Assembly: GCA_000416275.1 (NCBI GenBank)
Contig: ASZJ01000056.1
Span: forward strand, 77,522-139,681
Source of the DNA: Osedax symbiont Rs1
Lineage (GTDB): Bacteria > Pseudomonadota > Gammaproteobacteria > Pseudomonadales > Balneatricaceae
Direction of reading: 5' to 3'
Length of the DNA: 62,160 nucleotides
The first letter of the stretch is position 1; each line of letters starts with the position of its first letter. The translations under genes were made by a program, and so were the position numbers. The notes below the pieces were generated by a model that was not told the origin of the DNA, searched no databases, and saw only the letters and a list, made by a program, of their open reading frames with translations. Positions 39,862 through 60,024 of the stretch are shown here, in pieces.

Positions 39862-41622
39862 CTACCAGCCATAACCGAAGATCATCAGCGAGCCGACACT
39901 CAACAATAGCCCGCGTTTTATCAGGGGCTGTGGGGCGATCATAGCGAAAGATATGCAGTACAGAGCGATAGCAATTTTTATGGCAGCGGCAATCGCCAAT
40001 AGTGGGGTGCTCTCAAGCTTGATCAGGGAGGGGTTGGCGATCATTGCCAATGGGATAATATACAAGCCCACACCGAGCATCATCGCGGAACCTGCTACCT
40101 TTAACCAATTTTCTTTGACCATCCCAGCAGCGATAAAGACACAGCCGCAAACCGGTGGCGTAATAGTGGATAGCAGCGCAAACCAAAAGACAAACAAATG
40201 TGCCTGTAAAGGCGCGAGTCCCAATTGTAAAAGCGCTGGTCCCGCCACTGAAATGCAAATCACATAGGCTGCAGTAGTGGGAACTTCCATGCCTAGTATT
40301 AGACAGGCGATGGCGGTTAGTAATATAGCTGGCCACAGTTCTCCACCGGAGCCTGAGAGGATCAGCGAGGTGATTTTAATGCCTAACCCGGTGATTGAAA
40401 GAACCCCGATTACGATGGAAGCACAGAGGATAATTGCGGCAATCATCGCTATTTGTCGACCGGCATTAATACACACATCTTCTGCACGCTGTAGCAATAT
40501 TTGTTTAGATGCAAGCCCTTTAGCGGTGTAGAACAACAGCCCGGCGGCGACAAAAATGGCGATGCTAGCCGCATATTGAGGGGTGTAGGCAGGGCCAAAC
40601 ATGCCCCATAATAGCACTCCAAAAGGGAGTGTGAAAAATGCAGAAGTAATGGCCACCTTGCGCCATCCCGGCTGCTTATCTTTGCTGATTCCCTTTAAAT
40701 CATAGCGCAGCGAAAATGCATCTATCCCGGCCCAGACTGCCCAAAAATACAAAATAGCCGGTAAAATGGCGGCGAGCATAATACTCTGGTAGGGAATCCC
40801 GGTGAGTTCAACCATGACAAAGGCACCTGCGCCCATCAGTGGGGGCATGATTTGTCCACCAGAAGATGCCACAGCTTCAGTTGCTCCCGCCAGTGATTTA
40901 GGGTAGCCGAGCTTGGTCATAGCCGGCAGCGTGATCGCTCCCGTGGATGCCACATTAGCAGAGGCGGAACCTGAGATAGAGCCAAACAGTGCGGAGGATA
41001 TCACCGACACTTTTGCCGCACCACCACGCAGGCGTCCAGCGGCGGCCATCGCCACATTCATAAAGCCCTGACCGGCTTCTCCGGCGTTCAACACCGCGCC
41101 GAAGATCACAAAAATAGCCACTATGCTGACAGAGACCCCGGTTAATTTCCCCCAAATGCCCCCTTCGGCGATGGTTAAAGTACCCAAAAAACTGCCAATG
41201 GGGGTGCCAGGATGACCAAACTCTCCCGGGATATACTGACCAAACAGCCCATATGCGAGCGCAATAGCTGCCACTAATGGCAGCGGCCAACCGATACTGC
41301 GACGTGCCATTTCCAGCACACTGAGCAGCAAAATTGCCGCTATCCACAGCTGGTAATGCTCAGTTATATAGCCGTATTGGTCTCCTAAAGCCTCTGCATT
41401 GAATGCCACCCAGCCCGAGGCAAGCAAACTGATCACTGCAAATACATAACCACTATAGCGTTGCGCAGGAGTGTTACTGATAAAGATAAATGCCCAAGGT
41501 AATGCGAGTGCCATGTGCAGTGGACGACTGATTAAATTTGGCACTAGTCCAGAAAAAATCAAACTTAAGTGAAAGATGATACTGACCAAGCCAAGGCCGG
41601 CCCAAAAGAGTCGCTGCTGCAT
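39862..41622 (-). CDS. TRAP transporter fused permease (4TM/12TM)
   Basis: 586-residue fusion of the small and large TRAP permease subunits, the form that pairs with TAXI-type receptors. Around 15 hydrophobic segments. The large-subunit core shows GSISGSASANVASTGAITLPAM, the ASSGGQIMPPLMGAGAFVM block and GMEVPTTAAYVICISVAGPAL. It uses an ion gradient, usually Na+, to import carboxylates or related solutes; the substrate is not readable. Downstream of its receptor gene by 223 bases. Confidence 0.93.
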   Translation of the reverse strand: MQQRLFWAGLGLVSIIFHLSLIFSGLVPNLISRPLHMALALPWAFIFISNTPAQRYSGYVFAVISLLASGWVAFNAEALGDQYGYITEHYQLWIAAILLLSVLEMARRSIGWPLPLVAAIALAYGLFGQYIPGEFGHPGTPIGSFLGTLTIAEGGIWGKLTGVSVSIVAIFVIFGAVLNAGEAGQGFMNVAMAAAGRLRGGAAKVSVISSALFGSISGSASANVASTGAITLPAMTKLGYPKSLAGATEAVASSGGQIMPPLMGAGAFVMVELTGIPYQSIMLAAILPAILYFWAVWAGIDAFSLRYDLKGISKDKQPGWRKVAITSAFFTLPFGVLLWGMFGPAYTPQYAASIAIFVAAGLLFYTAKGLASKQILLQRAEDVCINAGRQIAMIAAIILCASIVIGVLSITGLGIKITSLILSGSGGELWPAILLTAIACLILGMEVPTTAAYVICISVAGPALLQLGLAPLQAHLFVFWFALLSTITPPVCGCVFIAAGMVKENWLKVAGSAMMLGVGLYIIPLAMIANPSLIKLESTPLLAIAAAIKIAIALYCISFAMIAPQPLIKRGLLLSVGSLMIFGYGW

Positions 41623-41845
41623 AATAATCTGTTCGGTGAGGTTGATGATGAGACAAGCTAAGGTGTCAATTCGGTATTCAGTCAGCTGTCATTAGGCGAT
41701 AATTTTTCTAGGACCTGAATCGCTATTTTCGGTCAAGTTGCTAGGTTTAAGGCGTGATATTAACGCTGATTTTTGTAGTAAAGAAAACAACTGCTAAGCA
41801 CGCCTATTTTTATAGTCGCGCTTAGCGCTCAAGCTACGCTAAAGC

Positions 41846-42802
41846 TTATTGGTGATGGGCAGCTAGTTCGACACCAGCTTCGAGATAGTATTTGACGGCA
41901 CCCGGGTGCATCTTACCGCTGATATTTGCTAACATTTTGCTGGAAACGCCGTTCCACCAAGGGGAAGTGTCCGCCATTATTTGTTTTTGCTGCCAGTAAC
42001 TTTTAGTTAATGTATACGCAGTTTTATCATCCATAGCAGTGGTTGTGTATGCAACGACCGGTAGTGAGGTTGTGGTTATATCTTTATCTTGGCCTGCGTA
42101 AGTGCCTGCTGGAATCACCAGTTTAGTGCGCTTAGACAGCTTTATCTGTTCATCGCTTAAGGAAAGCACAGTAACACCAGTACCTGCAGCCGCCTCTATT
42201 ACATTCGGAGCAGGGTAAGAACCCGCGGTTACAAAGCCATCGATCTGTCCATTTTTCAGTGCCGGTACCGCATTGGAAAGCTCCACTTGCGCCAAGGTAA
42301 CTTTGCCTTCAAGGCCGAAAAGCTTTAGATATTTTTCACCTTCACGTGCACCAAAGGAGCCTTTACCGAGTAATATTTTCTTGTCTTGCATTTGCGCAAA
42401 CGAATTAATACCACTCTTGTCAGACATCACAAAATGCATCGTTAGTGAGGGGATAGGAAAGAGTGCCCGGATCTCTTGAAACTTAGGATTGGCTCTTTTT
42501 TTGAACATCGCCTTACCTTGCTGAGCCAACTTGACCAGTACCGGAGGTGTAGTAAACACATAATTACCGCCGCGAACTGCCGCCTCCATAACGTTTTGTA
42601 CAGACCCTTGGCTCTCCTCAACCGTTACGATGTAGTTACTGTCGGTGCCTTGCTTTACCGCTTGGGATATTTCCACCGCCATTTGATAATAAGATGAACT
42701 GGTTTTTGCTGATTTGTAGGTAATACGAGTTTCAGCCAGCGCTAAACTGGTACAACTTAAAGTAACTGCGGCGCTCAGTAACACTTGAGAAAAAACCTTC
42801 AT
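41846..42802 (-). CDS. TAXI-family TRAP solute receptor
   Basis: Periplasmic binding protein of 318 residues. Signal peptide MKVFSQVLLSAAVTLSCTSLALA. The mature part has RITYKSAKTSSSYYQMAVEI, EESQGSVQNVMEAAVRGGNY, LLGKGSFGAREGEKYL and NGQIDGFVTAGSYPAPNVIE, matching the TAXI (NMT1-like) layout. Transcribed before the fused permease. Confidence 0.9.
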   Translation of the reverse strand: MKVFSQVLLSAAVTLSCTSLALAETRITYKSAKTSSSYYQMAVEISQAVKQGTDSNYIVTVEESQGSVQNVMEAAVRGGNYVFTTPPVLVKLAQQGKAMFKKRANPKFQEIRALFPIPSLTMHFVMSDKSGINSFAQMQDKKILLGKGSFGAREGEKYLKLFGLEGKVTLAQVELSNAVPALKNGQIDGFVTAGSYPAPNVIEAAAGTGVTVLSLSDEQIKLSKRTKLVIPAGTYAGQDKDITTTSLPVVAYTTTAMDDKTAYTLTKSYWQQKQIMADTSPWWNGVSSKMLANISGKMHPGAVKYYLEAGVELAAHHQ

Positions 42803-43543
42803 TCACACTCTCCGAATATTATTGTTATCAAATAAGGACATAAATAATAACAGCATAGAGTTAAATATAGCAACGCTACACAGCGCACAAAAACTATATA
42901 TGATTGACTATCCACTGAATTGCTGATTTTACTGCAGCACGTAGCACAAGCTGTTGATTTTAAAGTGGTTAAAAAACACCCGTTGAGATTAATGCATTGA
43001 TGCCTACAGACATATATTTAGCCAGTGCCAGACGCATATAAGTGTGCAGCTAGGCTTTTTCATCGCCGTTTTAAAGCCTACCTTTTAAGCTCAACATCCA
43101 CTTTGAAAGCACGGATTCAGGTTATAAAGTAGCACTTGGTCGAGTCCACTACTTCTAACCAGGGCTACTAAACAGCCCTACTAAAAAGAGCGACTAAAAC
43201 AAAGGGCAACTAATAAAATTAGCCTAATCATGACCACTTGGCAATCAGTAGTTATTAGCCAATTGCGTTGGATCAATGAAATAAAATAATCGATAACGTT
43301 GCTATTGCATTTATTAAAATAGCGATTTATAAATAAAATAACAGAGTTTAATTCTTTTACGTCCATTAAAATCACGCGCGCTTATGTGTTTTTGAATGAC
43401 GAACTCGGAGCGAGGTAGCTGAATCGTCCGAGATACTGAGCACTAAATGCAGGCGTTTGGTTTTGCCAAATAACGGCCTCTGCTTGTGACCAGTTGAGTT
43501 AATGCGCCCCTCCCGCAATCCTCTGTCCCTAGATTGTCATTAA
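42803..43543. other. Intergenic gap of repeat fragments upstream of the arc cluster
   Basis: 42917-43121 is a diverged family-B element (ends GATTCAGG at 43114-43121). About 43437-43475 matches a piece of family C (AGGCGTTTGGTTTTGCCAAATAAC). Between them the DNA is AT-rich. TTGCGTTGGATCAA (43263-43276) has 8 of 10 consensus bases of an Fnr/Anr site, but it lies nearly 500 bases from the first gene. No gene is supported. Confidence 0.5.
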
Positions 43544-43698
43544 CCTGAATCAGTGACTGCACTACATAGCATAAGCTCTTGATTCTACAGAGGTTAGAAA
43601 AATATCCGCTGAACCTATGGGTGCAGCTAAGATTTTTCAATTCCACTGTAAAACCAATATCTTACACTCTGTATTCTCTTTGAAGTCACGGATCCAGG
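43544..43698. mobile_element. Family-B MITE upstream of the arc cluster
   Basis: 155-bp element from CCTGAATCAGTGACTGCAC to GTCACGGATCCAGG, flanked by ATTAA at 43539-43543 and 43699-43703. It ends 57 bases before the start of the carrier gene, so the promoter of the arc genes must lie in this short gap, in the element, or beyond it. Confidence 0.85.
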
Positions 43699-43755: not shown

Positions 43756-45162
43756 ATGAAGTTGAAATTTAAGTTTCCTACGGCGTACACCATTCTATTC
43801 GTGTTAATTGCAGTAGTCGCTATGGCGACCTGGATTGTCCCTGCAGGGCAATACGAGCGGATCAGCAATGAAAAAGTCGGGCGTGAAGTACCAGTGCCAG
43901 GTACTTACAAATTAGTTGAGCAGAATCCCCAAGATTTTTATGATGTTGTGATGGCACCAGTGGCCGGGTTTTATGATCCTTCCTCATATGACGCGCGAGC
44001 CATTGATGTGGCGCTATTTGTAATCATCATCGGCGGGTTTTTAGCAGTAGTGAGCAAAACCGGGGCTATTGATGCTGGAATATCTCGAGTCATGTCCCGC
44101 TTAAAAGGGCGAGAAAAGTGGATGATACCCATTTTGATGGGGCTCTTTGCCGCCGGAGGTACTATTTACGGCATGGCGGAGGAAACTCTGGCATTTTATA
44201 TGATAATTATCCCCGTAATGATCTCAGCTCGCTATGACGCCATCACTGGTGTCGCAATCATAATGTTGGGAGCGGGGGTCGGTACACTCGGCTCTACCAT
44301 CAATCCATTTTCCACCGTGATCGCTTCAAATGCAGCAGGAATAGCGTTTACAGAGGGGATTGTGCTGCGCTTTATTCTTCTTTTTGCCTGTTGGCTCGCC
44401 TGTGTTATCTACGTGATGCGCTATGCAGAAAAGGTTAAAAACAATCCCGAATTATCACTAGTGGCAGACAAGAGAGCATCCAATGAAGCGCATTTCTTAA
44501 AGGGAAAGAATGGCTCAGATATGACGTTTACCGGTAAGCACAAAATAATTCTAAGTGTCTTCGCATTGAGCTTTGGGGTGATGATCTGGGGTGTTTCTGT
44601 CGGTGGCTGGTGGATGGCAGAAATGTCTGCTCTGTTTATCGTGGCTGCCATCGTAATCGGCTTTATCGACTGGATGGGCGAAGAGGAATTCACCACTACT
44701 TTTGTTGATGGTGCCCGTGATTTGCTGGGGGTTGCGCTGGTTATTGGCATAGCGAGAGGCATCGTTGTAATCATGGATGCCGGTAATATTACCGATACAA
44801 TATTGTTTTATGCAGAGGGAGCGGTGGCCGGCCTCGGTGAAATTGCCTTCATTAATACCATGTTTGGCCTGCAAGCTGGCTTATCATTTTTAGTGCCATC
44901 ATCTTCCGGTCTCGCTGTGCTGACTATGCCGATCATGGCCCCTTTAGGTGATTTTTCGGGTGTTGATCGCTCGCTTATTGTCACGGCTTTTCAAGCGGCT
45001 AGCGGCTTGGTTAATTTAATTAACCCAACTTTTGCAGTGGTGATGGGAGGTCTGGCATTAGGTCGGGTTTCCTATTCGAAATGGCTTAAATTTATGTGGC
45101 CTTTGTTATTGATTTTAACGGTCATCATCATGATAGGGCTTAGTGTTTCAGTGGCATTATAG
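43756..45162 (+). CDS. YfcC-family amino acid/carboxylate carrier, probable arginine-ornithine antiporter
   Basis: 468-residue membrane protein of the YfcC/ArcD-like group with 12 or so helices. It starts MKLKFKFPTAYTILFVLIAVVA, has ATWIVPAGQYER, then GLFAAGGTIYGMAEETLAFY, TLGSTINPFSTVIAS and FLVPSSSGLAVLTMPIMAPL. The E-E-T and P-S-S-S-G blocks are family hallmarks. YfcC proteins often replace ArcD in arginine deiminase clusters, and its position before arcABC supports arginine/ornithine exchange; this is inference. AGAGG before ATG 43756. Confidence 0.85.
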   Translation: MKLKFKFPTAYTILFVLIAVVAMATWIVPAGQYERISNEKVGREVPVPGTYKLVEQNPQDFYDVVMAPVAGFYDPSSYDARAIDVALFVIIIGGFLAVVSKTGAIDAGISRVMSRLKGREKWMIPILMGLFAAGGTIYGMAEETLAFYMIIIPVMISARYDAITGVAIIMLGAGVGTLGSTINPFSTVIASNAAGIAFTEGIVLRFILLFACWLACVIYVMRYAEKVKNNPELSLVADKRASNEAHFLKGKNGSDMTFTGKHKIILSVFALSFGVMIWGVSVGGWWMAEMSALFIVAAIVIGFIDWMGEEEFTTTFVDGARDLLGVALVIGIARGIVVIMDAGNITDTILFYAEGAVAGLGEIAFINTMFGLQAGLSFLVPSSSGLAVLTMPIMAPLGDFSGVDRSLIVTAFQAASGLVNLINPTFAVVMGGLALGRVSYSKWLKFMWPLLLILTVIIMIGLSVSVAL

Positions 45163-45164
45163 TT

Positions 45165-45508
45165 ATGTCGTTCAATCAATTGGAGATTGAGCTCAAGCAT
45201 CAGAGTAAACCTGCACTGGGTTTACTGATGTGTACCGCATTAGTGGTCGGTAACATGATTGGTTCCGGTATATTTTTACTGCCTTCGGCTTTAGCTTGTT
45301 TTGGCCCAATCTCAATATTTGCTTGGGTGATCACCGGTATGGGGGCTATTGCTTTAGCCTCGGCTTTTGGCCGGCTGGCAATCTTAGTGCCCAAATCGGG
45401 TGGGCCATACGCATATGCCAGAGAAGGTTTTTGGGCTTCATTTTATTAATGATCGGCTTGCCGGTATATGTTTTTCAAATACAAAGAAATTACAAAGCAC
45501 AGAAACTA
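45165..45508 (+). pseudogene. Amino acid permease (APC family) with a large internal deletion
   Basis: The first 94 codons read as a normal basic amino acid/polyamine permease: ALGLLMCTALVVGNMIGSGI, FLLPSALACFGPISIFAWV, SGGPYAYAREGFW. Then it stops at 45447-45449. In the next frame, FILLMIGLPVYVFQIQRNYK looks like the last helix and tail of the same kind of protein. About 300 residues from the middle are therefore gone, with a frame change at the junction near 45437. A family-C element follows at once and supplies the stop of the second frame. It begins 2 bases after the YfcC gene stop. Confidence 0.8.
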
Positions 45509-45509
45509 G

Positions 45510-45674
45510 CTAGTGCCCATCCAGAAACAGGGGCGTAGCGAGAGAGACCCAATGGTTCAAGATGAGCGACACTAGATATGGGCGTTTGGTTGTCCCAAAT
45601 AACTATATCTAGTGGTGATTAGATTGAGTTAGTGGGGCTGTCGCAGTAGCTCATTGTTTCTGGATGGGCACTAG
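45510..45674. mobile_element. Family-C MITE with perfect 20-bp inverted ends
   Basis: CTAGTGCCCATCCAGAAACA (45510-45529) is the exact reverse complement of the sequence at 45655-45674. The body shares most of its length with 38305-38463. No transposase is encoded. It lies between the permease remnant and arcA; only 26 bases remain before the arcA start, so it also forms the arcA upstream region. Confidence 0.85.
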
Positions 45675-45700
45675 ATAATGTCGTTTAAAAGGGGTTGGCT

Positions 45701-46930
45701 ATGAGCGGTTTTGGTACAGATTCAGAAATAGGAAAATTAAGAAAAGTGATCACCTGTCAACCGGGGCTTGCGCATGCAAGATTAACTCCAGGTAATGCTG
45801 AAAAGCTTCTTTATGACGATGTTCTCTGGGTGCATCAAGCAAAGACTGATCATGCAGATTTCAGAATGAAAATGGAAGAGCGAGACGTACAGGTCTATGA
45901 GTTTCACCAACTACTTAAAACCACAATGGAGAACAAAGAAGCCAGAAATTGGGTGTTAGATCGATTGATCACCGAAAATAACGTCGGTGTTGGCATGTTA
46001 AATGAGTTGCGATCTTGGCTAGATGACTGGGATGCAAAATCACTGGCTATGCATTTAATAGGAGGTATTGCGGTTCAGGATTTACCTTTTAAGCCGCACG
46101 GCATGTTTGGTAATTATTTGGGACAACATGGCTTTGTTATTCCACCGATTCCCAATACTCAATTTACCCGTGACAACAGTTGCTGGATAAACCGTGGTGT
46201 CGTATTAACCTCCATGTATTGGCCAGCGAGAAGGCCAGAAACCTTATTGACCACTGCCGTGTATAAGTTTCACCCAGAATTTGCAAAGGGTGATTTTAAA
46301 GTGTGGTGGGGATCTCCTGATATAGATCATGGCCTGGCCACGATTGAAGGGGGTGATGTTATGCCTTGGGGCAACGGTACCGTTTTGATAGGTATGGGTG
46401 AGCGCACTAGCCCTCAAGCGGTGGGTCAAGTCGCTAAATCTTTATTTGCAGCCGGTGCTGCAGAGCGGGTGGTCGCCTGTCAAATGCCGCAAAGCAGAGC
46501 TGCGATGCATCTTGATACAGTGTTTAGCCATGTAGATCGTGATGTGATCACCGCTTATGTCGATGTTTGTGATGACATTCAATGCTATAGCTTAAGACCC
46601 GGAGAGCAAGAGGGAACGATTGATTTTCGTAAAGAAAAAGATCACTTGTTTAGCGTCGCTGCAGATTGCCTAGGTATTGAAAAATTTAATGTGGTGCAAA
46701 CGGGTGGCGATAGTTTTAATCAGGAGCGAGAGCAGTGGGATGACGGTAACAATGTGGTGTGTCTGGAGCCTGGAGTGGTGATTGCCTACGATAGAAATAC
46801 TTATACCAACACCTTATTACGCAAAGCGGGAATAGAAGTAATTACCATCCCAGGATCAGAGCTTGGCCGCGGTCGTGGTGGTGCTCATTGTATGACCTGT
46901 CCAGTGACTCGTGACACAGTAACCTATTAA
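45701..46930 (+). CDS. arcA: Arginine deiminase
   Basis: Hydrolyses L-arginine to L-citrulline and ammonia, first step of the ADI pathway. About 409 residues. The guanidino-group hydrolase active site is intact: [34 protein letters not shown] and the nucleophile Cys397 in [10 protein letters not shown]. The frame opens at TTG 45695, but ATG 45701 preceded by AAAAGGGG is the likely start. Followed by arcB after 20 bases with AAGGAG. Confidence 0.97.
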
Positions 46931-46950
46931 TGATTAACAAGGAGTAATGT

Positions 46951-47952
46951 ATGGCGTTTAACTTGAAAGGTCGAAGTTTTTTAAAACTATTAGATTTTAA
47001 CCAGCGCGAAATACGCTATTTACTGGACCTTGCGCGTGATTTGAAACGGGCAAAATATGCCGGCTCAGAAATCCAGCATTTAGTCGGTAAAAATATCTGC
47101 CTGATCTTTGAAAAAGCCTCTACCCGTACCATGTGCGCATTTGAAGTGGGGGCCATGGATCAAGGCGCTCATGTGACCTATTTGGGACCCTCTGGCTCGC
47201 AGATCGGTCATAAAGAATCGATGAAAGACACCGCGAGAGTGCTGGGAAGAATGTTCGATGGTATTGAATATCGTGGTTTTGGTCAGGAGATAGTGCAAGA
47301 ACTCTCCGACTATGCCGGTGTACCGGTTTTTAATGGCTTGACTGATGAGTTTCATCCGACGCAAATGCTCGCTGATTTATTGACGATGCAAGAGTATGGC
47401 GAAAAGCCCTTGAGCGAAATTAGCTATGCCTACGTTGGCGATGCGCACTCTAATATGGGTCACTCACTGATGATTGCCGGTTGTTTAATGGGCATGGACG
47501 TACGTATTGCCTCACCTAAAGAACTTTGGCCAAGTGCTGAATTTAGAAAGCCAGCGGAGGAACTAGCCGCAAAATATGGTGGGACTCTCACCATTACTGA
47601 AGACCCTAAAGAGGCGGTTAAAGGCGTAGATTTTATTCATACCGATGTGTGGGTATCGATGGGCGAAAGTGATGATGTTTGGGCGTCAAGGATCAAACAA
47701 TTGACCCCTTATCAAGTCAATGCCGAATTAATGGCTGCTAGCGGCAAGTCCTCGACCAAGTTTATGCATTGTCTCCCAGCGTTTCACAATACCGAAACTG
47801 AAGTAGGTAAAGATATTTTCAATAAGTTTGGTATTACCGAAATGGAGGTGACTGATGATGTTTTTGAAAGTCCAGCGGGCATACAGTTTGAGCAGGCAGA
47901 AAATCGTATGCACACCATAAAAGCGGTTCTTGTAGCAATGATAGGAAGCTGA
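46951..47952 (+). CDS. arcB: Ornithine carbamoyltransferase, catabolic
   Basis: Phosphorolyses citrulline to ornithine and carbamoyl phosphate in the ADI pathway. 333 residues. The carbamoyl-phosphate site is [16 protein letters not shown] (STRT 57-60), then [15 protein letters not shown], the ornithine loop VWVSMGES and the HCLP motif in [16 protein letters not shown]. The catabolic role is inferred from the cluster. Good AAGGAG before ATG 46951. Confidence 0.96.
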
Positions 47953-47954
47953 AC

Positions 47955-48896
47955 ATGAGGGTAGTAATTGCGCTCGGAGGTAATGCTTTACTGAAGCGCG
48001 GGCAGGCATTGACTGTAGAAAATCAGCGAGAAAATACGGTAATTGCCGCCAAAGCATTGGCTGAGGTAGCCCAAACACATCAACTGGTGATCACTCATGG
48101 TAACGGCCCCCAGGTGGGGCTTCTCGCCTTGCAAGCTAATGCTTATAAGCCTGAAGAAGCCTTTCCCCTGGATGTTTTAGGGGCTGAAACAGAAGGTATG
48201 ATCGGTTATATGATAGAGCGGGAACTCGGCAATATTTTGCCTGAGGAGACGCCACTGGCGACTATCTTAACCATGATTGAAGTGGATGCAGATGATCCGG
48301 CCTTCGCTGATCCAACCAAGTTCGTCGGTCCCGTTTATGAGAGGGAAGAAGCACAGCGACTAGCCGCTGAAAAAAAATGGGAGATTAAAGCCGATGGTGA
48401 CAAGTGGCGCAGAGTTGTCGCTTCTCCTCTGCCCAAGCGTATTTTTCAAATTCGTCCCATTAAATGGTTAATTGAAAAGAACACCGTAGTGATTTGCGCT
48501 GGCGGCGGCGGTATACCCACCGCTTATGATAAAGATGGAATGCTCAGAGGGATAGAGGCGGTGATCGACAAAGACTTGGCTACTGAACTTCTCTCAAGAG
48601 AGGTGGAGGCAGATTTGTTTATCTCGGCTACCGATGCTGATGCGGTTTACCTTCATTGGGGTGAAGAGCAGCAAAAAGCGATTCGTCGTGCGCCACCGGC
48701 GTTAATGAGAGAGTATGCTTTTGCCGCAGGGTCGATGGGCCCCAAGGTAGATGCCGCCTGTCATTTTGTTGAGGCGACCGGAAAGACTGCGGCTATTGGA
48801 GCACTGGCAGACTTGTCGGATATTATTGCCGGCAACAAAGGCACCACCATTACCGCGGACGCAACGCAAGTTGAGTTCTATGAGACCTCTGCATAA
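47955..48896 (+). CDS. arcC: Carbamate kinase
   Basis: Makes ATP from ADP and carbamoyl phosphate, releasing ammonia and CO2; this is the energy-yielding step of the ADI pathway. 313 residues. Motifs: [66 protein letters not shown] and [15 protein letters not shown]. It starts 2 bases after arcB. The last four codons (Glu-Thr-Ser-Ala) and the stop TAA are the left end of a family-A element at 48882, so the native C-terminus was replaced by the insertion. The catalytic core is not affected. Confidence 0.96.
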
Positions 48897-49061
48897 CGTT
48901 GCGAGCGATGGTAAGACAAAGTAAAAACCGGCGAGATAGCGGAGTCAGTGTGCCCTCTTTTATGGGTATTACTGGTGTGAATGAGCATGTTGAGCTGGTT
49001 TTTAACGCGGTATTATCTAGCGCAGTTATCATACCCTCTGGGTAAGTTATGCAGAGCTCTC
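48882..49061. mobile_element. Family-A MITE overlapping the 3' end of arcC
   Basis: 180 bp from GAGACCTCTGCATAACGTTG to GTTATGCAGAGCTCTC, with 16-bp ends matching 15/16. Its interior matches the 14.6-kb copy. No clean target duplication (TCTAT left, TCATG right). Its first 15 bases are read as arcC codons. It occupies nearly all of the arcC to V-ATPase gap and ends 45 bases before the subunit B start. Confidence 0.85.
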
Positions 49062-49106
49062 TCATGATAATTAGCAGCACTGCAAAGTAAGCAAAAGGAA
49101 ATTTAA

Positions 49107-50471
49107 ATGGCTGGCGGTCTTATAAAATATTCGCGTGTCTTGGAAATTGTCGGTGACACGCTAAAAATACAGGTTCCCTTGGTCGAGGGCGCTGAAACTG
49201 TGGTTCGTTTTGGTGATTTAGCGGTGGTGCAAAGCACTGATGAAAAGAAGTCTCTCGCCCAAGTGATTAATATCGACCGCGAGGTCATCACCTTACAAGT
49301 GTTTTCTGGGACGAAAGGCATCTCAACGGCGGCAACCGCCAGTTTTCTTGGCCACTCCATGCAGGTGACCTTCTCTCCCAATATACTAGGGAGAATTTTT
49401 GATGGTTCTGGCGAGCCTATTGATGGTGGACCAGACCTGTCGTTCGATCCAAAGATAACCCTTGGCGGGCCCTCAGTTAATCCTGTTGAGCGCTTGGTGC
49501 CAAATAAAATGATCCGCACAGATGTGCCGATGATTGATGTTTTTAACTGTTTGGTCGAAAGTCAAAAAATTCCAATATTTTCTGTATCAGGAGAAGCTTA
49601 CAATCCGTTTTTAGCGCGCATTGGCATCCAAGCCGATGCAGATATTGTGGTTTTTGGTGGGCTGGGGTTAAATTTTGATGACTACTATACCTTTCGAAAA
49701 TCCTTTGAAGATGCGGGCGTTTTTTCCCGAACGGTGATGTTCGTCAATCAAGCTTCCGACCCTTTGGTGGAGCGTTTATTAGTGCCAGATATGGCACTGG
49801 CTGTCGCTGAAAAATTTGCGGTGGAGGAGGGCAAGCGAGTCTTGGTTTTATTAACGGACATGACCGCTTATGCCGATGCGATGAAAGAAATTGGCATCAG
49901 TCAGGAGCGAGTGCCGTCTAACCGTGGCTATATGGGCGATTTGTACAGCCAGTTGGCACGGCGCTACGAGAAAGCCTGTAATTATGCCAATGGTGGATCA
50001 GTGACTATTTTATCTGTGACGACAATGCCGGGTAATGACGTCACCCATCCTGTTCCCGATAATACGGGGTATATTACCGAGGGGCAATTTTACCTCCATG
50101 ATGGAAAACTGGACCCCTTTGGCAGCCTTTCCAGGCTTAAACAAAATGTTATCGGCAAAGTGACTAGAGAAGATCATAGCCAAATTATGAATACCATGAT
50201 CCGCTTCTATTCGGATGCCAGTGATGCGGCGCAAAAGCAGGCGATGGCCTTTGATTTGTCAGAGTATGACCAACAACTTTTGAAATTTGGCGATTTATTT
50301 CGCACCCGTTTCATGGATATTAATGTCTCGATTCCGCTAGAGGAGGCATTAGATCTTTGCTGGCAGACCTTGGCGGAATGCTTTGAGCGAGAACAACTGC
50401 TAATGAAACCCGCTTTAGTGGCGCAATACTTTCCCCAAGAGGTCGCTAATGGCGCGTTTACAGCTCAATAA
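49107..50471 (+). CDS. atpB: V/A-type ATPase subunit B (non-catalytic)
   Basis: Nucleotide-binding but non-catalytic subunit of the peripheral V1/A1 head. 454 residues. [55 protein letters not shown] and [15 protein letters not shown] fit subunit B. The P-loop is replaced, as expected, by [23 protein letters not shown] and [17 protein letters not shown] are further markers. AAAGGA precedes ATG 49107. First gene of the seven-gene operon; its end overlaps subunit D by 23 bases. Confidence 0.95.
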
Positions 50472-51045
50472 GTCATCTCTTGCGAGAGAAGCTGCGAACC
50501 TTAGAACTTATCAAAAATTTCTGCCATCGCTGGATCTCAAACGCCAGCAATTGATGGCAGAAAAAGCTAAGGCACAAAGCCATATTGTGCTAATGGAAGA
50601 GCGAGTGTCTGAATTAGTCCGACAGGTTAGGCGCGATCTACCGATGTTGAGCAATCGAGAGATTGATTTAGCAGGTTTGGTGACACTCGTCGATTACCAA
50701 CTGGTAACTGAAAACGTCGTCGGCACAAAACTGCCAATGGTAGAGAACATAATCATTGAAAAAAAATCCTATTCAAAAATCGCCAAACCGCATTGGGTCG
50801 ATGATGTAGCGAGATTACTGCAAGCTATGCTCGAGCTGCGCCTAAGCATGCAGGTCGCTAAACAGCGACTGTCTCTACTGAAAATAGCGACCAAGACGAT
50901 CACCCAAAGAGTTAATCTTTTTGACAAGGTTTTAATCCCGACAGCGGCGGCAAATATTAAAAAAATTAAAATCTATTTGAGCGATGACCAAATGGCTGCT
51001 GTGGTTCGATCAAAAATAGCCAAACGAAAACGGGCTTTGAAATGA
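50449..51045 (+). CDS. atpD: V/A-type ATPase subunit D (central shaft)
   Basis: Rotor shaft subunit inside the A3B3 head. 198 residues, mostly long helices: [20 protein letters not shown] to [16 protein letters not shown] at the N-terminus, and [28 protein letters not shown] near the C-terminus, the family signature. It starts inside the subunit B gene (23-base overlap) and its stop overlaps subunit I by ATGA. Confidence 0.92.
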
Positions 51046-52838
51046 GTATTGCTCAACTTAAAAAAATATCTATTGTGGGCCGCTTGAGCGACAAGGAGTC
51101 GACGCTGCAATTTTTACAAGCTTTGGCCTGTCTACATATTATTCCGCTGGTGGGAAAACCGCTGGAGATTGAAAAAATAGCGCTGCGCAATGCCGAGCAT
51201 GCCCACAAGGCGTTACGATTTCTGAGCAGTGTGGCCAAGCCTCGCAGGCAAGTATCGCAAGATGCTGATTTTAATGTAGCTGAATTTGTCAGCTCGGTAT
51301 TAAAGCTTAAACAAAGTACCCGCGAGTGCCATGATAAATGTGACTTTTTAAAAAGCCGCATCAAGGCGATAAAACCTTGGGGTAATATTGATTTTATCGA
51401 TGACTCTCAACTGGTAGGTTTTCATTTCTGGTTTTATCAGCTGCCTTTAAAAGATAAGAAATATCTTGATGAGATTAAATTGCCCTGGCAGTTAATCTCT
51501 GCAGATAATCGCTTCCTGTTTGTGGTACTCATTTGTGCGGATGAGCCAGATGCATCATTACTCCCCGTGCCTCGTACTCATGTGGGCTCTGTGCCAATGG
51601 CAGAGCTGGTGATTCAGCTTGAGGAGACAGAAGTACAATTAGAGTCACTGCAAGCGGAGCAACTTGCTATGACTAGATACTTAACACTTTTACGGAAAAA
51701 TCTATCCATTGCAGAAACTCAGGCGGAATTGAATTTTGCCAAACAGCAGACCAGAGATGATGCCGGGATGTTCCTGTTACAAGGCTGGGTTCACGATCGG
51801 AGAGTGGCTGAAATTAGCCAGCATACCGATGACTTAAACTTTGCCGTATTAATAGAAGAACCCGCCTGGGATGAGGAGCCACCCACCTTATTAATCCAGC
51901 CAGAAAAAGAGGCGGCGGGGGTCGACATGGCATTATTCTATCAAGTGCCCAGTTATCGAAGTTGGGATCCTACGCTGCTTTTAATGGTTTCATTTAGTCT
52001 GTTCTTTAGCATGATAGTCGCTGATGCCGGCTATGGCGGAGTGATCTTATTAGCTCTGCTCTTCGCCTGGAAGCGCTTGTCAGCGACGGTTGAAATGAAG
52101 GCGTGGCGTCGTATGGGGCTCATTCTTGCCGGCACCACCATTGTTTATGGGGTGATGGTGGGGAGCTACTTTGGCATGGAACCGCCGATAGCATCGATCC
52201 TTGCCGATTTGAAAATCATTAGCTTAAACGACTTCGACCTAATGATGAAAATCTCCATTGTGGTCGGCATTATCCATATTGTGTTCGCTAATATTATGCG
52301 CATGCAAGTGATTCGTCGACGGCGCAGTTGTGTCGCAAGTTTTGGGTGGATCGGCATTCTTATCGGTGGGCTTGCACTCTGGCTAAGTGGGCAGGTAGGG
52401 CTGTGGTTCGTCATTGGCGCAGCTATCATGATTGTCGGACTCTGCTTAATCGTCTTTTTTACCAGCGAGAGGCCAATCGTCAAGCCATTAGATTGGGTCT
52501 GGCGCATCTTTGATGGGGTGAAAAGTTTAACTGGGGTGATGGGAGCTTTTGGCGATGTACTAAGTTATATGCGGCTTTTTGCGCTCGGCTTAGCGTCGGC
52601 ATCTCTGGCCATGACTTTTAATAATTTAGCTTTCGACATCATAGCAAGTAAGCCGGGGATTGGTTTGTTAGCGGGAATATTTATTCTGGCGGTCGGTCAT
52701 TTGTTAAATTTTTCTCTTGCCATGATGAGCAGTGTAGTACACGGCTTACGTCTTAATTATATTGAGTTTTTTAAATGGGGTTTACCCGAGGAAGGGTATG
52801 CTTTTCGAACATTTCGCCGTAAAGAGGTATCAAAATGA
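51042..52838 (+). CDS. atpI: V/A-type ATPase subunit I (membrane stator, a-subunit homologue)
   Basis: Membrane subunit that carries the ion half-channels. 598 residues: a cytoplasmic N-terminal half with coiled-coil segments (about 1-310) and a C-terminal half with seven or so helices. SLFFSMIVADAGYGGVILLAL is the family hallmark, as are the helix with the essential Arg in FGDVLSYMRLFALGLASASLA and VVHGLRLNYIEFFKWG. ATGA overlaps with both neighbours. Confidence 0.93.
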   Translation: MSIAQLKKISIVGRLSDKESTLQFLQALACLHIIPLVGKPLEIEKIALRNAEHAHKALRFLSSVAKPRRQVSQDADFNVAEFVSSVLKLKQSTRECHDKCDFLKSRIKAIKPWGNIDFIDDSQLVGFHFWFYQLPLKDKKYLDEIKLPWQLISADNRFLFVVLICADEPDASLLPVPRTHVGSVPMAELVIQLEETEVQLESLQAEQLAMTRYLTLLRKNLSIAETQAELNFAKQQTRDDAGMFLLQGWVHDRRVAEISQHTDDLNFAVLIEEPAWDEEPPTLLIQPEKEAAGVDMALFYQVPSYRSWDPTLLLMVSFSLFFSMIVADAGYGGVILLALLFAWKRLSATVEMKAWRRMGLILAGTTIVYGVMVGSYFGMEPPIASILADLKIISLNDFDLMMKISIVVGIIHIVFANIMRMQVIRRRRSCVASFGWIGILIGGLALWLSGQVGLWFVIGAAIMIVGLCLIVFFTSERPIVKPLDWVWRIFDGVKSLTGVMGAFGDVLSYMRLFALGLASASLAMTFNNLAFDIIASKPGIGLLAGIFILAVGHLLNFSLAMMSSVVHGLRLNYIEFFKWGLPEEGYAFRTFRRKEVSK

Positions 52839-53281
52839 ATGAGTTTGTAATTGGTTTAGGTTGGATGGGCATATACGCGCCGATGGCGCTCGGTTCTATT
52901 GCCAGCTCCATCGGTTGCTGCATTGCGGGGCAGGCAAGTATCGGAGCCATGTTAGAAACGGACAGTGGCTATGGCCGCTTTGTTGGAATATCAGCCTTTC
53001 CCTCGACCTTCGTAATTTATGGGATTGTCATCATGTTTACCTTAAATAGGGAGGTAACCATTGACAATGCGGGTGGGCTATTCGGTATCGGGATATTAGC
53101 GGGATTGGCCTTGCTGTATTGCGGAATATCACAGGGCAGAGCTTGTGCTTCTGCGATCTCCGCGGCCAAAGAAAAACCTGAAATATTTGGTTTGGCCCTG
53201 GCACCAGCGGCAATCATCGAAGGTTTTGGGGTGTTCGCCTTCGTCTTCGCGCTCGTGATAAGTGCAGGGATACCGCAATGA
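52835..53281 (+). CDS. atpK: V/A-type ATPase subunit K (proteolipid rotor ring)
   Basis: 148 residues forming two helical hairpins (four helices), the duplicated 16-kDa form. Only the second hairpin has the ion-binding carboxylate, Glu129 in AIIEGFGVF. Gln100 (ISQGRA) corresponds to a Na+ ligand of Enterococcus NtpK. In the first hairpin the P-x-T-Q-x-x-Y-G motif reads PSTFVIYG (56-63), so the Thr is kept but the neighbouring Gln is Phe59. ATGA overlaps on both sides. Confidence 0.92.
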   Translation: MNEFVIGLGWMGIYAPMALGSIASSIGCCIAGQASIGAMLETDSGYGRFVGISAFPSTFVIYGIVIMFTLNREVTIDNAGGLFGIGILAGLALLYCGISQGRACASAISAAKEKPEIFGLALAPAAIIEGFGVFAFVFALVISAGIPQ

Positions 53282-53955
53282 TTGAGTCGGATATTAACGC
53301 CCAAGGTGTCGATGCCTTAATCAAAAAACTGCATGAAGATGGGGTTTCTTCCGGGAGAGAGCAGGCAAAGAAAATTATTGCTGAGGCGGAGCATAAAGCT
53401 GAAAAAATACTGACCAAAGCTAAATTAGCTGCCGATAAATATTTAAAAGAGGCCCGTCTTGCGGCTGATAAATATCAGGCGGGAGGAGAACAAGCCTTAA
53501 ATACCGCGATGCGTGATGCTGTTCTATCAATGAAATCAGGGCTGATGGCCCATTTTCAAGCAGATCTAAAGCGACTGGTATCAGATTCACTATCGCAACC
53601 TGATATGTTAGAGAAAATGATTCTAGAAATAGTCGGTTCAGCCAAAAAATCGATAGGTACAGAAAAACACATCGATATCATCTTACCGGTCGAGGTGATC
53701 GGTTCTCAGGCAATCGAAGAGCGAGCCGAAGAGCTGCAAAATGGCGCGCTTACCCAATATGTGTTGGGTCTAACCCAAGCTATGTTCCAACAGGGGGTGA
53801 CACTGCATGCCGCCAATGACTTCTGCAGTGGTATACGGGTCAAACTTAACGACAAACATATAATTTTGGATTTATCCGAAGCGTCTATTACATCGTTATT
53901 AATGCAACATATGCAGCCCAGATTTCGGGCGTTATTAGAAGGTGTGATTAAATAA
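53278..53955 (+). CDS. atpE: V/A-type ATPase subunit E (peripheral stalk)
   Basis: 225 residues. The N-terminal half is a charged helix (EQAKKIIAEAEHKAEKILTK, LAADKYLKEARLAADKY) typical of the stator stalk. The globular C-terminal half contains VLGLTQAMFQQGVTL and ends in FRALLEGVIK. No separate subunit G/H gene is seen in the operon. It overlaps subunit K by ATGA. Confidence 0.88.
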   Translation: MIESDINAQGVDALIKKLHEDGVSSGREQAKKIIAEAEHKAEKILTKAKLAADKYLKEARLAADKYQAGGEQALNTAMRDAVLSMKSGLMAHFQADLKRLVSDSLSQPDMLEKMILEIVGSAKKSIGTEKHIDIILPVEVIGSQAIEERAEELQNGALTQYVLGLTQAMFQQGVTLHAANDFCSGIRVKLNDKHIILDLSEASITSLLMQHMQPRFRALLEGVIK

Positions 53956-53958
53956 AAA

Positions 53959-54651
53959 ATGAGTAATCAGGATGCCTATATCACCTTGATATCCAGCTTT
54001 CCCGCCTCGGAGCGCTTGTTCATTGAAAAACAAGCGCCACTGTCGAGGCTGCGGCTAGATCAGCGCCTCAAAGCGTTAACCCCGGATGATGCCAACACCT
54101 TATTAAGCATTGAATCTTTGTTTGCCTGGCAGCACTACAGCATGGACGATAGTGATGAAGCTATTATTCAGCGGGCGCGCCAGGTACTGGCTCAAATTCG
54201 GCAGCCGACGCTTAGGGCGATTATTACTGAACGTCTGGAGCTTAGGACTGCTGTTGCTGCGTTACGGCTGCGTAAAGAGGGAGCAGTAGCACCTATTAGC
54301 CCATGGGGCTTTGGTCGTTGGACCAAGACCATTGAAGCGAACTGGGCTGATGCGGTGTTTGCGCTAGGTACAGCGATGCCCTGGTTGCACGAGGCGAATA
54401 ATCTAATTAATAATCAAGATCCGCTGGGCTTTGAAAGATATATTTTGCAAGTGACTTACCGTCAATTACAGCGCCATGGGGCTAGGCACAGTTTCGATTT
54501 TGAAGCGGTGGTTATCTACGTTCTCAAGTGGCACATTTTTGATCGTTGGTCGCACAGTAATACCGAAGCTGCAGCAAGGCGCTTTGAAGCTCTGGTGCAA
54601 AGCGCACTAGGTAAATATGCAGACGCTAGCGCATTGGGAGAAATTAAGTGA
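53959..54651 (+). CDS. DUF2764 family protein, putative V-ATPase subunit C equivalent
   Basis: 230 residues. DUF2764 proteins are found in bacterial V/A-ATPase operons of Chlamydiae and spirochaetes in the place of subunit C, which links rotor and stator; a role as a C-like adaptor is inferred from position. Visible here: ITLISSFPASERLFIEKQAP near the N-terminus and the Trp-rich segment PWGFGRWTKTIEANWADAVF. Between subunits E (3-base gap) and A (GTGA overlap). Confidence 0.8.
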   Translation: MSNQDAYITLISSFPASERLFIEKQAPLSRLRLDQRLKALTPDDANTLLSIESLFAWQHYSMDDSDEAIIQRARQVLAQIRQPTLRAIITERLELRTAVAALRLRKEGAVAPISPWGFGRWTKTIEANWADAVFALGTAMPWLHEANNLINNQDPLGFERYILQVTYRQLQRHGARHSFDFEAVVIYVLKWHIFDRWSHSNTEAAARRFEALVQSALGKYADASALGEIK

Positions 54652-56519
54652 CAGTTAAGGCAAAACCACAGATTACCACCATCAATCCTACCGCCCAGAT
54701 TGTGGCGGTTCAAGATGATTTAGTGGAGATTGAATTAGTACCGGATAAGCACGGAGAACTAGCCGACCTGGTAAAAAATGAGGTCATTTATATACTACCG
54801 AGTATTTTAAATGAGCAGGGTCGCCAAGAGTACTTAAAAGCTGAAGTATTAAGGGTGCGGGGAAATACCGCAGATGCCCAAGTGTATGAAAGTACCCAGG
54901 GAGTGGCTGTGGGTGATAGTGTGCTGCAAACTGGCGAATTACTCTCAGTAGAATTGGGGCCGGGGCTGCTCGGGCAAATATTTGATGGTTTACAAGCTCC
55001 ACTGAAAAAAGTAAGCGAGGAATTTGCTACGTTTCTTCCCCGTGGCATAAATATCCCCGCGTTAGATATCAACGATAAATGGTCGTTCACGCCGGTGGTT
55101 AAAGTGGGTAGCGAAGTGAAGGCCGGCGATGTGCTGGGCACGGTACCAGAGGGGCGCTTTAGCCATAAAATAATGGTGCCTTTTAACTGGGCCGGGAAAT
55201 ACCAAGTAGCATGGATACAAAAGGGCAGCTGTAGAATACAAGATGCTATTGCTCATATCACCGATCAAGCTGGCAATGAAAAACAAGTCACACTCTCGCA
55301 AAAATGGCCGGTGCGCCGCTCACTACCGGCTGACCTTCTAAAAAGCACCAGCTCTAGCAGGCTCTATCCGGATGAACCGGTTTTAACCAATCAACGGATC
55401 ATCGATACATTTTTCCCGATAGCGCTAGGGGGAACCGCTTGTATCCCCGGGCCTTTTGGCGCCGGTAAAACCGTGCTACAAAACCAGATAGCCCGTAATG
55501 CAAAGGTCGATATAGTGATCATCGTGGCCTGTGGTGAAAGGGCGGGAGAAGTGGTGGAGACCATTCAAGAATTTCCGAAAATGATTGATCCCAGTTCCGG
55601 TAACAGCCTGATGGAAAGAACCATCATTATCTGCAACACCTCTTCGATGCCCGTTGCCGCGCGAGAAGCCTCGATTTTTACCGGGATAACGCTTGGCGAG
55701 TACTATCGGCAAATGGGGTTAAATGTACTCTTAATTGCCGACAGCACCTCGCGTTGGGCACAGGCGATGCGTGAAACATCGGGCAGATTAGAAGAAATCC
55801 CTGGAGAAGAAGGCTTTCCAGCGTATCTAGAGAGCTCTATCAAAGGCCTATATGAGCGCTCGGGAGTGATAGCAACCAATGATGGGGCAAAGGGCAGTTT
55901 GACCATGATAGGAACGGTATCACCGGCAGGGGGGAATTTTGATGAACCGGTAACCCAAAGCACATTATCCACCGTTAAATGCTTTTTAGGCTTGTCATCA
56001 GAGAGAGCTTACAAACGCTTTTATCCCGCGGTTGATCCTCTGATGTCATGGTCTCGCTACCTTACGCAGCTATCGACTTGGTATGACAAAAATCTTGAGC
56101 CTGGCTGGGTTGCAAGAGTAAAAAAGCTGCAAGAACTCTTAGTTAAAGGCGATCAGGTCTTGCAAATGATGCAAGTCACCGGCGAAGAAGGCGTCACCAT
56201 GGATGATTTCATCATCCAGCAAAAAGCCCTTTTTCTAGATATGGTCTACCTTCAGCAAGACGCCTTTGATGAAGTTGATTCAAGTGTTTCTTTTGAGCGG
56301 CAGCAATTGATCTTGAAAAAAATTCATAGCATATTCAACAACAGCTATCAGTTCGATTCAAAAGCGGCAGCGAGGAAATACTTCACAGAATTAACCGGGG
56401 TCTATAAAAACTTTAACTACGCCGCTGAGGGCACCCCTGATTACATCTCTCTACTGGAACAAATAGATAAAATGGCTCTCACCGCAACCACTGCTCAAGC
56501 GAAAGAAGCGTATCTTTAG
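54648..56519 (+). CDS. atpA: V/A-type ATPase subunit A (catalytic)
   Basis: Catalytic ATP-hydrolysing subunit, 623 residues. The P-loop is [15 protein letters not shown]; the catalytic Glu lies in [38 protein letters not shown] and EEGFPAYL follow. The N-terminal barrel and the extra bulge domain of A subunits (about 115-210) are present. It starts at GTG 54648, overlapping the upstream stop, with GGGAG upstream. It ends the operon; no subunit F gene follows before the repeat array. Confidence 0.96.
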
Positions 56520-56569
56520 CCAACAGCTAGAGATTAGCAGAATGTAGGTAGAACAGGAGCGGGCGGTGA

Positions 56570-57470
56570 AAAAACTATAAAAAACTGGTTTTACCACAGA
56601 GGTCACAGCGGGCACAGAGGAGGGGCTTAAAGACTTAAATCAAAAGTGAAGAGTTGTCAGCCAAGTGATTTTAAATTCAAAATTAATCACTAGAAATCTG
56701 CAAAATGCTGGTAGAACAGGATACGATCATAAAAACTGAGCTCGCAGCCTATTGTCATCATGGTTTTGTTTTTCCTTTATGCAGCGCAGCGCCTCTGCTA
56801 TAGAGAAAAGACTTTAAAAGACTAGTTTTACCACAGAGGGCACAGAGGTCACAGAGGAGGGACTTAAAAGACTAAAGCCTAGAAAATTGTTATTTTGCTA
56901 AGAATTAGATTGGTTGGTTTTAATGTTTTCTCTGTGCAGCGCAGCGCCTCTGCTATAGAGAAAAGACTTTAAAAGACTGTTTTACCACAGAGGTCACAGA
57001 GGTCACAGAGGAGGGATTTAAAAGACTAAAAGCCTAGAAAATTGTTATTTTGCTAAGAATTAGATTGGTTGGTTTTAATGTTTTCTCTGTGCAGCGCAGC
57101 GCCTCTGCTATAGAGAAAAGACTTTAAAAGACTGGTTTTACCACAGAGGGCACAGAGGTCACAGAGGAGGGACTTAAAAGACTAAAACCTAGAAAATTGT
57201 TGTTTTGCTAAGAATTAGATTGGTTGGTTTTAGGGTTTTCTCTGTGCAGCGCAGTGTCTGTGGATCTATTGAGAAAAGACTTTAAAAGACTAGTTTTACC
57301 ACAGAGGGCACAGAGGTCACAGAGGAGGGATTTAAAAGACTAAAACCTAGAAAATTGTTGTTTTGCTAAGAATTAGGTTGGTTGGTTTTAATGTTTTCTC
57401 TGTGCAGCGCAGCGCCTCTGTGGTGAAAAAATCTTTAAAATCTTGGTCTTACCCCAGAGAACACAGAGAG
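56570..57470. repeat. CCACAGAGG satellite-like array 2, about 155-bp period
   Basis: At least four near-identical units begin with TTTTACCACAGAGG at about 56825, 56980, 57134 and 57292, a period of roughly 155 bases. Each holds two or three CACAGAGG motifs, GGAGGGATTTAAAAGACTAAA, AGAAAATTGTT, AATTAGATTGGTTGGTTTTA and TCTCTGTGCAGCGCAGCGCC. Partial units lie on each side. High identity between units points to recent tandem amplification. Confidence 0.88.
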
Positions 57471-57519
57471 AATGGATTAAACGTTTATAGCCGTATATCA
57501 ATAGATTATAAGAGAGCTC

Positions 57520-59099: not shown

Positions 59100-59740
59100 G
59101 AATTTATTGTAATTATAGTGTTCCGTTTTTCTCTGTGCCGGTACAGCACCTCTGCGGTGAATAAACCCTTAAAAAGACTAGTTTTACCACAGAGGGCACA
59201 GAGGAGGGATTTAAAGACTTAAATGAAAAATTATTGGTTGTGGGTCTGCTAATTAAAAATTAATCACTAGAAATCTGCAGAATGCTGGTAGAACAGGATA
59301 CGATCATAAAAACTGAGCTCGCAGCCTATTGTCATCATGGTTTTGTTTTTCCTTTGTGTAGCGCAGCATCTCTGCGGTGAATAGCCCCTTAAAAGACTAG
59401 TTTTACCACAGAGGGCACAGAGGTCACAGAGGAGGGACTTAAAGACTAAGTGAAAAGTGAAAAGTGAAAAGTGACGAATTTTCAGCCAAGTGATTTGAAA
59501 TCCAAGATTAATGGCTAGAGATTGCTGTCTTTCTAAATTTCTTGATTTTAATGTTTTCTCTGTGCAGCGCAGCGCCTCTGTGACCTCTGTGGTGAAAACG
59601 CCCTTAAGATCTTGGTTTTTGTTTTACTAGGTTTTAGGCTTTTCTCTGTGCAGCGCAGTGTCTGTGGATCTCGGTGGTGAAAAAAGACTTTAAAAGCTTG
59701 GTTTACCACAGAGGGCACCAGAGGTCACTTTCGCGGATAT
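59100..59740. repeat. CCACAGAGG satellite-like array 3
   Basis: Units like those of array 2 (TTTTACCACAGAGGGCACAG, GTTTTTCCTTTGTGTAGCGC) but more varied. AATTAATCACTAGAAATCTGC followed by AGAATGCTGGTAGAACAGGA is shared with about 56683-56721 of array 2, so longer blocks than the core unit were copied. Confidence 0.85.
59448..59474. repeat. Heptamer AAGTGAA, almost four copies
   Basis: Three perfect AAGTGAA units and a fourth lacking the last base, embedded in satellite array 3. Confidence 0.85.
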
Positions 59741-59864: not shown

Positions 59865-60024
59865 CCTGAATCAGTGACATCACTGCACCACATAGCGCAA
59901 GCTCTTGATTCTACAGCGGTTAGAAAAATACCCGCTGAACCTATGGGTGCAGCTAAGATTTTTCAATTCCACTGTAAAACCAATATCTTACACTCTGTAT
60001 TTACTTTGAAATCTCGGATTCAGG
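59865..60024. mobile_element. Family-B MITE upstream of the OmpA-like gene
   Basis: 160-bp element from CCTGAATCAGTGACATC to CGGATTCAGG, flanked by ATGAT at 59860-59864 and 60025-60029. It is nearly identical to the 43.5-kb copy over the interior (GCAGCTAAGATTTTTCAATT, CCAATATCTTACACTCTGTA), which suggests recent mobility. An open frame crosses it into the downstream gene. Confidence 0.88.

Follow-up and report, generated by a model that had tools for sequence, protein, structure and literature searches.

We analysed a 62,160-nt stretch of the genome of Osedax symbiont Rs1 (assembly GCA_000416275.1, contig ASZJ01000056.1, positions 77,522 to 139,681), here called the window, following an earlier note, made from the letters alone, that described arginine deiminase genes running into a V/A-type ATPase operon. 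Between window positions 43756 and 56519, all genes lie on the forward strand: a DcuC/YfcC-like carrier, arcA, arcB, and arcC, followed by the seven genes of a V/A-type ATPase operon in the order B-D-I-K-E-DUF2764-A (Table 1). The order, strand, and coordinates given earlier for arcABC and the pump genes held up against the reading frames and profile searches.

Table 1. Features of the arc–ATPase cluster in window coordinates, with the evidence for each.
Feature	Coordinates	Strand	Evidence
DcuC-family (YfcC-like) carrier, likely for arginine/ornithine	43756..45162	+	PF03606, 401.6 bits
APC amino-acid permease remnant: ~90 codons of the N terminus followed, in a different frame, by a short part of the C terminus	45165..45540	+	tblastn with intact relatives
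Repeat element with perfect 20-nt inverted ends	45510..45674		end match
arcA, arginine deiminase	45701..46930	+	profiles and 1rxx alignment
arcB, ornithine carbamoyltransferase	46951..47952	+	PF02729 and PF00185
arcC, carbamate kinase	47955..48896	+	TIGR00746 above cut-off
Miniature inverted-repeat transposable element (MITE), arcC–atpB junction	48882..49061		inverted ends, genome-wide copies
V/A-type ATPase subunit B	49107..50471	+	PRK02118, 707.7 bits
Subunit D	50449..51045	+	PF01813; TIGR00309 above cut-off
Subunit I	51042..52838	+	PF01496 above cut-off
Subunit K (membrane ring)	52835..53281	+	PRK09621 above cut-off
Subunit E-like	53278..53955	+	PRK01558, 84.1 bits, under cut-off; position
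DUF2764-like subunit	53959..54651	+	PF10962, 17.8 bits, under cut-off 24.1; position; all-helical model
Catalytic subunit A	54648..56519	+	PRK04192, 766.8 bits; resembles Enterococcus A subunit 7coq

Gene content of the two halves

The carrier had been called YfcC. Its membership of the DcuC family is clear, whereas it scored 299.4 bits against the YfcC equivalog PRK11588 (cut-off 500), and it can therefore be named YfcC-like at most. The APC permease that follows is broken in the window and intact, at 441–454 aa, in four relatives (tblastn). The earlier note had seen only a MITE in the cluster; that element is real but is not the sole insertion, as a second repeat element and the permease remnant precede arcA. 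ArcA aligns over its full length to the solved arginine deiminase 1rxx (E = 4.8e-177), keeping HCMTCP and a further conserved stretch, which we take to be active-site motifs. It passed PRK01388 (567.8 versus 414) and narrowly missed TIGR01078 (479.8 versus 489.1). Its start was placed by eye at ATG 45701, where the frame list gives TTG 45695. ArcC scored 395.3 against TIGR00746 (cut-off 358.25), and ArcB carries both ornithine carbamoyltransferase domains, its putative catabolic direction being read from the neighboring genes. With Pseudomonas-type arcDABC, this half shares an ArcA that is full-length like 1rxx, the order arcA-arcB-arcC, and an adjoining carrier; it differs in that its carrier belongs to the DcuC family, its APC permease is broken, and it runs on into a V/A-type ATPase operon.

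By their coordinates, the pump genes overlap at B/D, D/I, I/K, K/E, and DUF2764-like/A, as expected of a single transcript. Subunits A, B, and K passed curated NCBIfam cut-offs, D passed TIGR00309, and I passed its Pfam cut-off only; all five lie within the one operon. The E-like gene fell below the cut-offs of PRK01558 (241) and PF01991 (E = 0.046), and the profile scan found no PF01991 match anywhere in the genome. This gene and the DUF2764-like gene between E and A were given their putative names from weak similarity and position. The all-helical model of the DUF2764-like protein had no Foldseek match at E 0.001 (the C/d chains of V-ATPases took ranks 2, 3, and 17), and searching its profile against solved chains gave nothing at E 10; its fold at most suggests a subunit C. 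The operon had been described as complete, which stands for the seven-gene DUF2764-type set but not for F and G/H, genes for which are absent from the operon and were not searched for elsewhere in the genome. Operons of the DUF2764 type in Bacteroides and Parabacteroides share the seven genes (E, DUF2764, A, B, D, I, and K-type) in the order E-DUF2764-A-B-D-I-K, of which the window order is a rotation; the stretches viewed there, one of which ends close to E, held no arc genes.

The ion was considered through the K ring. According to PMC9006882, the Na+ ligands of the Enterococcus hirae ring are L61, T64, Q65, Y68, Q110, and E139. The window K has F, T, F, Y, Q, and E at these positions, so that the equivalents of E139, Q110, T64, and Y68 are kept, those of Q65 and L61 are not, and the E. 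hirae-type set is incomplete; Na+ and H+ both stay candidates. Across our K alignment, Q110 and E139 were present in all 86 rows and Q65 in 26. The Enterococcus ntp operon, which is Na+-translocating in E. hirae, shares rotary A, B, D, I, K, and E with the window, whereas it has C and F as genes of their own and is ordered differently, and the window K lacks ligand Q65. The host also encodes an F-type a subunit, which makes the V/A-type pump an extra one, and two NqrB/RnfD-family genes.

Recurrence and origin of the pairing

The full order carrier-arcA-arcB-arcC-B-D-I-K-E-DUF2764-A recurs in Rhodobacteraceae/Roseobacteraceae, Rhodovibrionaceae, Kiloniellales, Minwuiaceae, and one Pseudomonadales assembly. 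In 80 pump loci (labeled L), tblastn placed arc genes directly upstream in L032, L033, L034, L036, L037, L057, L060, L061, L070, and L073 and directly downstream in L044 and L046, with arcC only in L067 and an arcC remnant in L072; this count is a lower bound, as many loci end short. One genome (G456) has two pump operons, L034 beside intact arcABC and L072 beside the remnant. By eye, NiFe hydrogenase-like genes precede atpB in L018, L022, and L023.

Fifty of the pump loci led to 49 genomes (labeled G), in which we took a census of ArcA. The protein was found in 25, of which 13 have arcABC no more than 10 kb from the pump (G454, G455, G456, G458, G459, G463, G465, G467, G475, G477, G478, G486, and G488; G463 rests on a contig end with a broken B). 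Random placement in 4–5 Mb would yield about 0.1 of 25, with the proviso that the genomes are not independent, so the comparison with chance proposed in the earlier note came out in favor of linkage. The family and class samples added two more linked genomes, G932 and G591, the latter divergent and matching the place on the Qingshengfaniella alkalisoli plasmid. Three layouts were thus seen, with the arc genes upstream, downstream (two Ruegeria), or divergent (the Q. alkalisoli plasmid). Recurrence and differing layouts led us to reject an accident of this genome alone. Members of one cluster of similar genes, the L187 member being a porin (Porin_4), occur in five linked loci (L187, L191, L193, L194, and L195), and L201 has, by eye, a porin-like frame between arcB and arcC.

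Single arc genes also stand beside some V-ATPases. Seventeen plasmid records carried a V-ATPase A subunit; we searched all 17 stretches, two of which end close to the operon, and three had an arc gene beside the pump. Q. alkalisoli has the full divergent arc set, and Tateyamaria omphalii has arcC alone, overlapping atpB. In the Enterococcus gallinarum record, arcA lies 370 bp directly upstream of an ntp-like operon, arcB and arcC both being absent from the stretch, whereas the window has arcABC; this single case could be chance, and the record, which also carries a vanC region, may be a mislabeled chromosome piece. The Tateyamaria strain of L067 (G483) has an arcC frame at 56% identity and no ArcA anywhere in its genome.

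In an ArcB+ArcC tree of 31 rows, from which one long row was excluded, most linked sets formed one clade (98/91), with G591 and G932 elsewhere; a single clade of all linked ArcB+ArcC sets was rejected (p-AU 0.000123, approximately unbiased test). In a quick tree, linked ArcA proteins fell into three ArcA lineages, which means either that ArcA was swapped in place or that the joining was repeated. A quick pump tree, with many near-copies, mainly from Ruegeria, interleaved linked and unlinked operons, pointing to frequent gain and loss. The pump and arc genes of L028, from an assembly labeled Saprospiraceae, grouped with Proteobacteria, through a wrong bin or transfer.

Among 57 genomes of near kin, the window's included, 13 had the A subunit, 3 had ArcA, and 1 had both; six congeners had neither. 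The window A subunit is 74–76% identical to its best nine matches, eight of which are labeled Alphaproteobacteria or its families, and 59–62% identical to those of ten genomes of its own family and 46% to that of one more. With A nearer to Alphaproteobacteria than to its own family, horizontal acquisition of the cluster is, from these identities, most likely. Of 256 genomes from the family of G458, 7 had the pump, 33 had arcA, and 3 had both (0.9 expected), two of the three being linked and one of those two being the search centre. For the class of G478, a sample searched for the pump and not for arcA, this pump was found in 5 of 385 genomes at E 1e-150. Two were linked, one being the search centre, and one of the remaining three sits on a contig of 9.8 kb that leaves 2.1 kb ahead of B, where linkage is possible.

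The arcC–atpB junction

The MITE is 180 bp long, with 16-nt ends (48882–48897 and 49046–49061) that are 94% complementary; a search of the genome gave 152 + 162 matches to its end motif and 0 + 0 to the reversed control. Its left arm supplies the last four codons and stop of arcC, and arcC and atpB are 210 bp apart. In 12 other genomes the arc genes precede the pump and share its strand, and in 10 of these arcC and atpB overlap or are at most ~110 bp apart: the frames overlap in L187 and L189, and the gaps are 15 bp (L188), 24 bp (L184–L186), 28 bp (L057), ~57 bp (L165), 69 bp (L194), and ~110 bp (L195/L070). The wider gaps are 1.8 kb (G459) and 0.7 kb (G932). Since the junction is tight in 10 of 12, the 210 bp of the window look like a late insertion. 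The MITE RNA is predicted to fold strongly (z −4.43), and no U-run was seen after it. The MITE may have weakened co-transcription in the window, where the module is, as far as its genes tell, intact apart from the permease.

Outside the cluster, a DctM-type transporter and an NMT1-like binding protein lie upstream on the minus strand (39862–42802). A 64-nt unit is repeated eight times 3′ of the pump operon (56568–57489 and 59161–59443), the middle copies being spaced 153–158 nt. By eye, positions 43540–43690, 5′ of the carrier, are near-identical to 59866–60000 at the start of an OmpA/DUF4892 frame, whose GTG start as listed may therefore be incorrect.

Arginine as a proposed fuel for the pump and alternative readings

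The arginine deiminase pathway is an established route to ATP without respiration. Here, going by the families of the proteins, the DcuC/YfcC-like carrier, joined in many relatives by an APC antiporter, would exchange arginine for ornithine, and ArcA, ArcB, and ArcC are predicted to convert arginine to ornithine, CO2, two ammonia, and one ATP without respiration. The rotary V/A-type ATPase would then spend that ATP on exporting Na+ or H+, which would keep the ion gradient alive when respiration stalls. Selection for producing fuel and pump together would account for repeated joining in different layouts. We put the probability that the window holds such a horizontally acquired, two-part energy module, an arginine-fuelled ion pump, at about 55%. 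The earlier note's idea of such a pump fits the recurrence in several orders, the three layouts, and the overlapping frames of some loci, while the coupling itself is something we infer; the recurring pairing suggests, and does not prove, that one set feeds the other. The broader proposal is a mobile operon with its own fuel line, built several times independently, which would wire arginine fermentation to a dedicated rotary ion pump, hold the ion gradient without respiration, and occur in reduced form, with only arcA or only arcC, at other V-ATPases; we would put this at a little under even odds.

Several observations weigh against a fuelled pump. Most of the 80 pump loci have no arc genes, though many end short, and 12 of the 25 census genomes with ArcA are unlinked as seen, with arcA elsewhere or on another contig, some contigs being short. 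The one near relative with both pump and arcA is the window's own genome. In a sample of 398 genomes from the phylum (pump called at E 1e-60, arcA at E 1e-40), the pump was present in 31 and arcA in 48, and both sets occurred only in the window's genome, against 3.7 expected. General coupling of arginine deiminase to V-ATPase across the phylum is thereby rejected, and only a subset of pumps would be tied to arginine. The earlier note would have called the link accidental if close relatives kept the two gene sets apart; that holds in part, for near kin with the pump and no arcA and for the phylum, whereas linkage recurs elsewhere. The E. gallinarum stretch holds arcA only, which yields no ATP by itself, and in the window the junction is interrupted by the MITE and the permease is broken. 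Promoter-like sites were not in excess (17 against a shuffle mean of 21.4), terminator-like sites also numbered 17 (shuffle mean 14.2), and 12 upstream stretches had no FNR-like box in common.

Patchy spread and transfer would also be produced if two dispensable accessory sets simply landed together on islands or plasmids and were transferred as neighbors, with no coupling between them. Two linked or partly linked cases are indeed on plasmids, and one Ruegeria comparison shares the pump operon only, with differing flanks. Co-landing does not readily explain arcC and atpB frames that overlap, a gene order constant across several orders, ArcA swapped in place, or joining repeated with the same partner. 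When flanking genes were clustered, moreover, the accessory partners recognized across distant lineages were the arc genes and a porin (rough gene calls). We regard this explanation as possible, and clearly less probable than a fuelled pump.

The link could instead run through ammonia rather than ATP, with deiminase ammonia alkalinizing the cell and an Na+ pump of the Enterococcus kind keeping the Na+/K+ balance where the proton gradient fails. An arcA without arcB or arcC beside the E. gallinarum pump would suit such a pH partnership, as would a divergent cluster in a saline-soil bacterium whose species name is alkalisoli, and E. hirae depends on its Na+ V-ATPase at alkaline pH, according to PMC13379511. 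The arcC retained alone by the Tateyamaria pump points to ATP, however, the window ring lacks Na+ ligand Q65, and Lactococcus lactis arginine deiminase drops at alkaline pH; we judge the idea improbable. That the pump runs as an ATP synthase, the two sets merely adding two ATP sources, is very unlikely. Some V/A-type ATPases do make ATP (Thermus; PMC9006882), but an F-type a subunit is already encoded by the host, and a synthase would have to draw on an ion gradient, which the breakdown of arginine does not provide.

Published parallels come from other species. In Streptococcus pyogenes, PMC6803311 reports arginine metabolism and V-type ATP synthase both upregulated and shared with a low-glucose-induced set, which is co-regulation in a distant species. 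Clostridium sticklandii has both the arginine deiminase pathway and a V-ATPase, with adjacency not stated in the passages of PMC3091704 on them. The literature searched, which left most subscription journals outside its coverage, yielded no description of the pairing as a gene cluster. Some respiring bacteria hold a second, V/A-type ATPase beside the F-type, and its repeated genetic association with a fermentation that makes ATP hints at what a part of these V/A-type pumps, at least, may run on.

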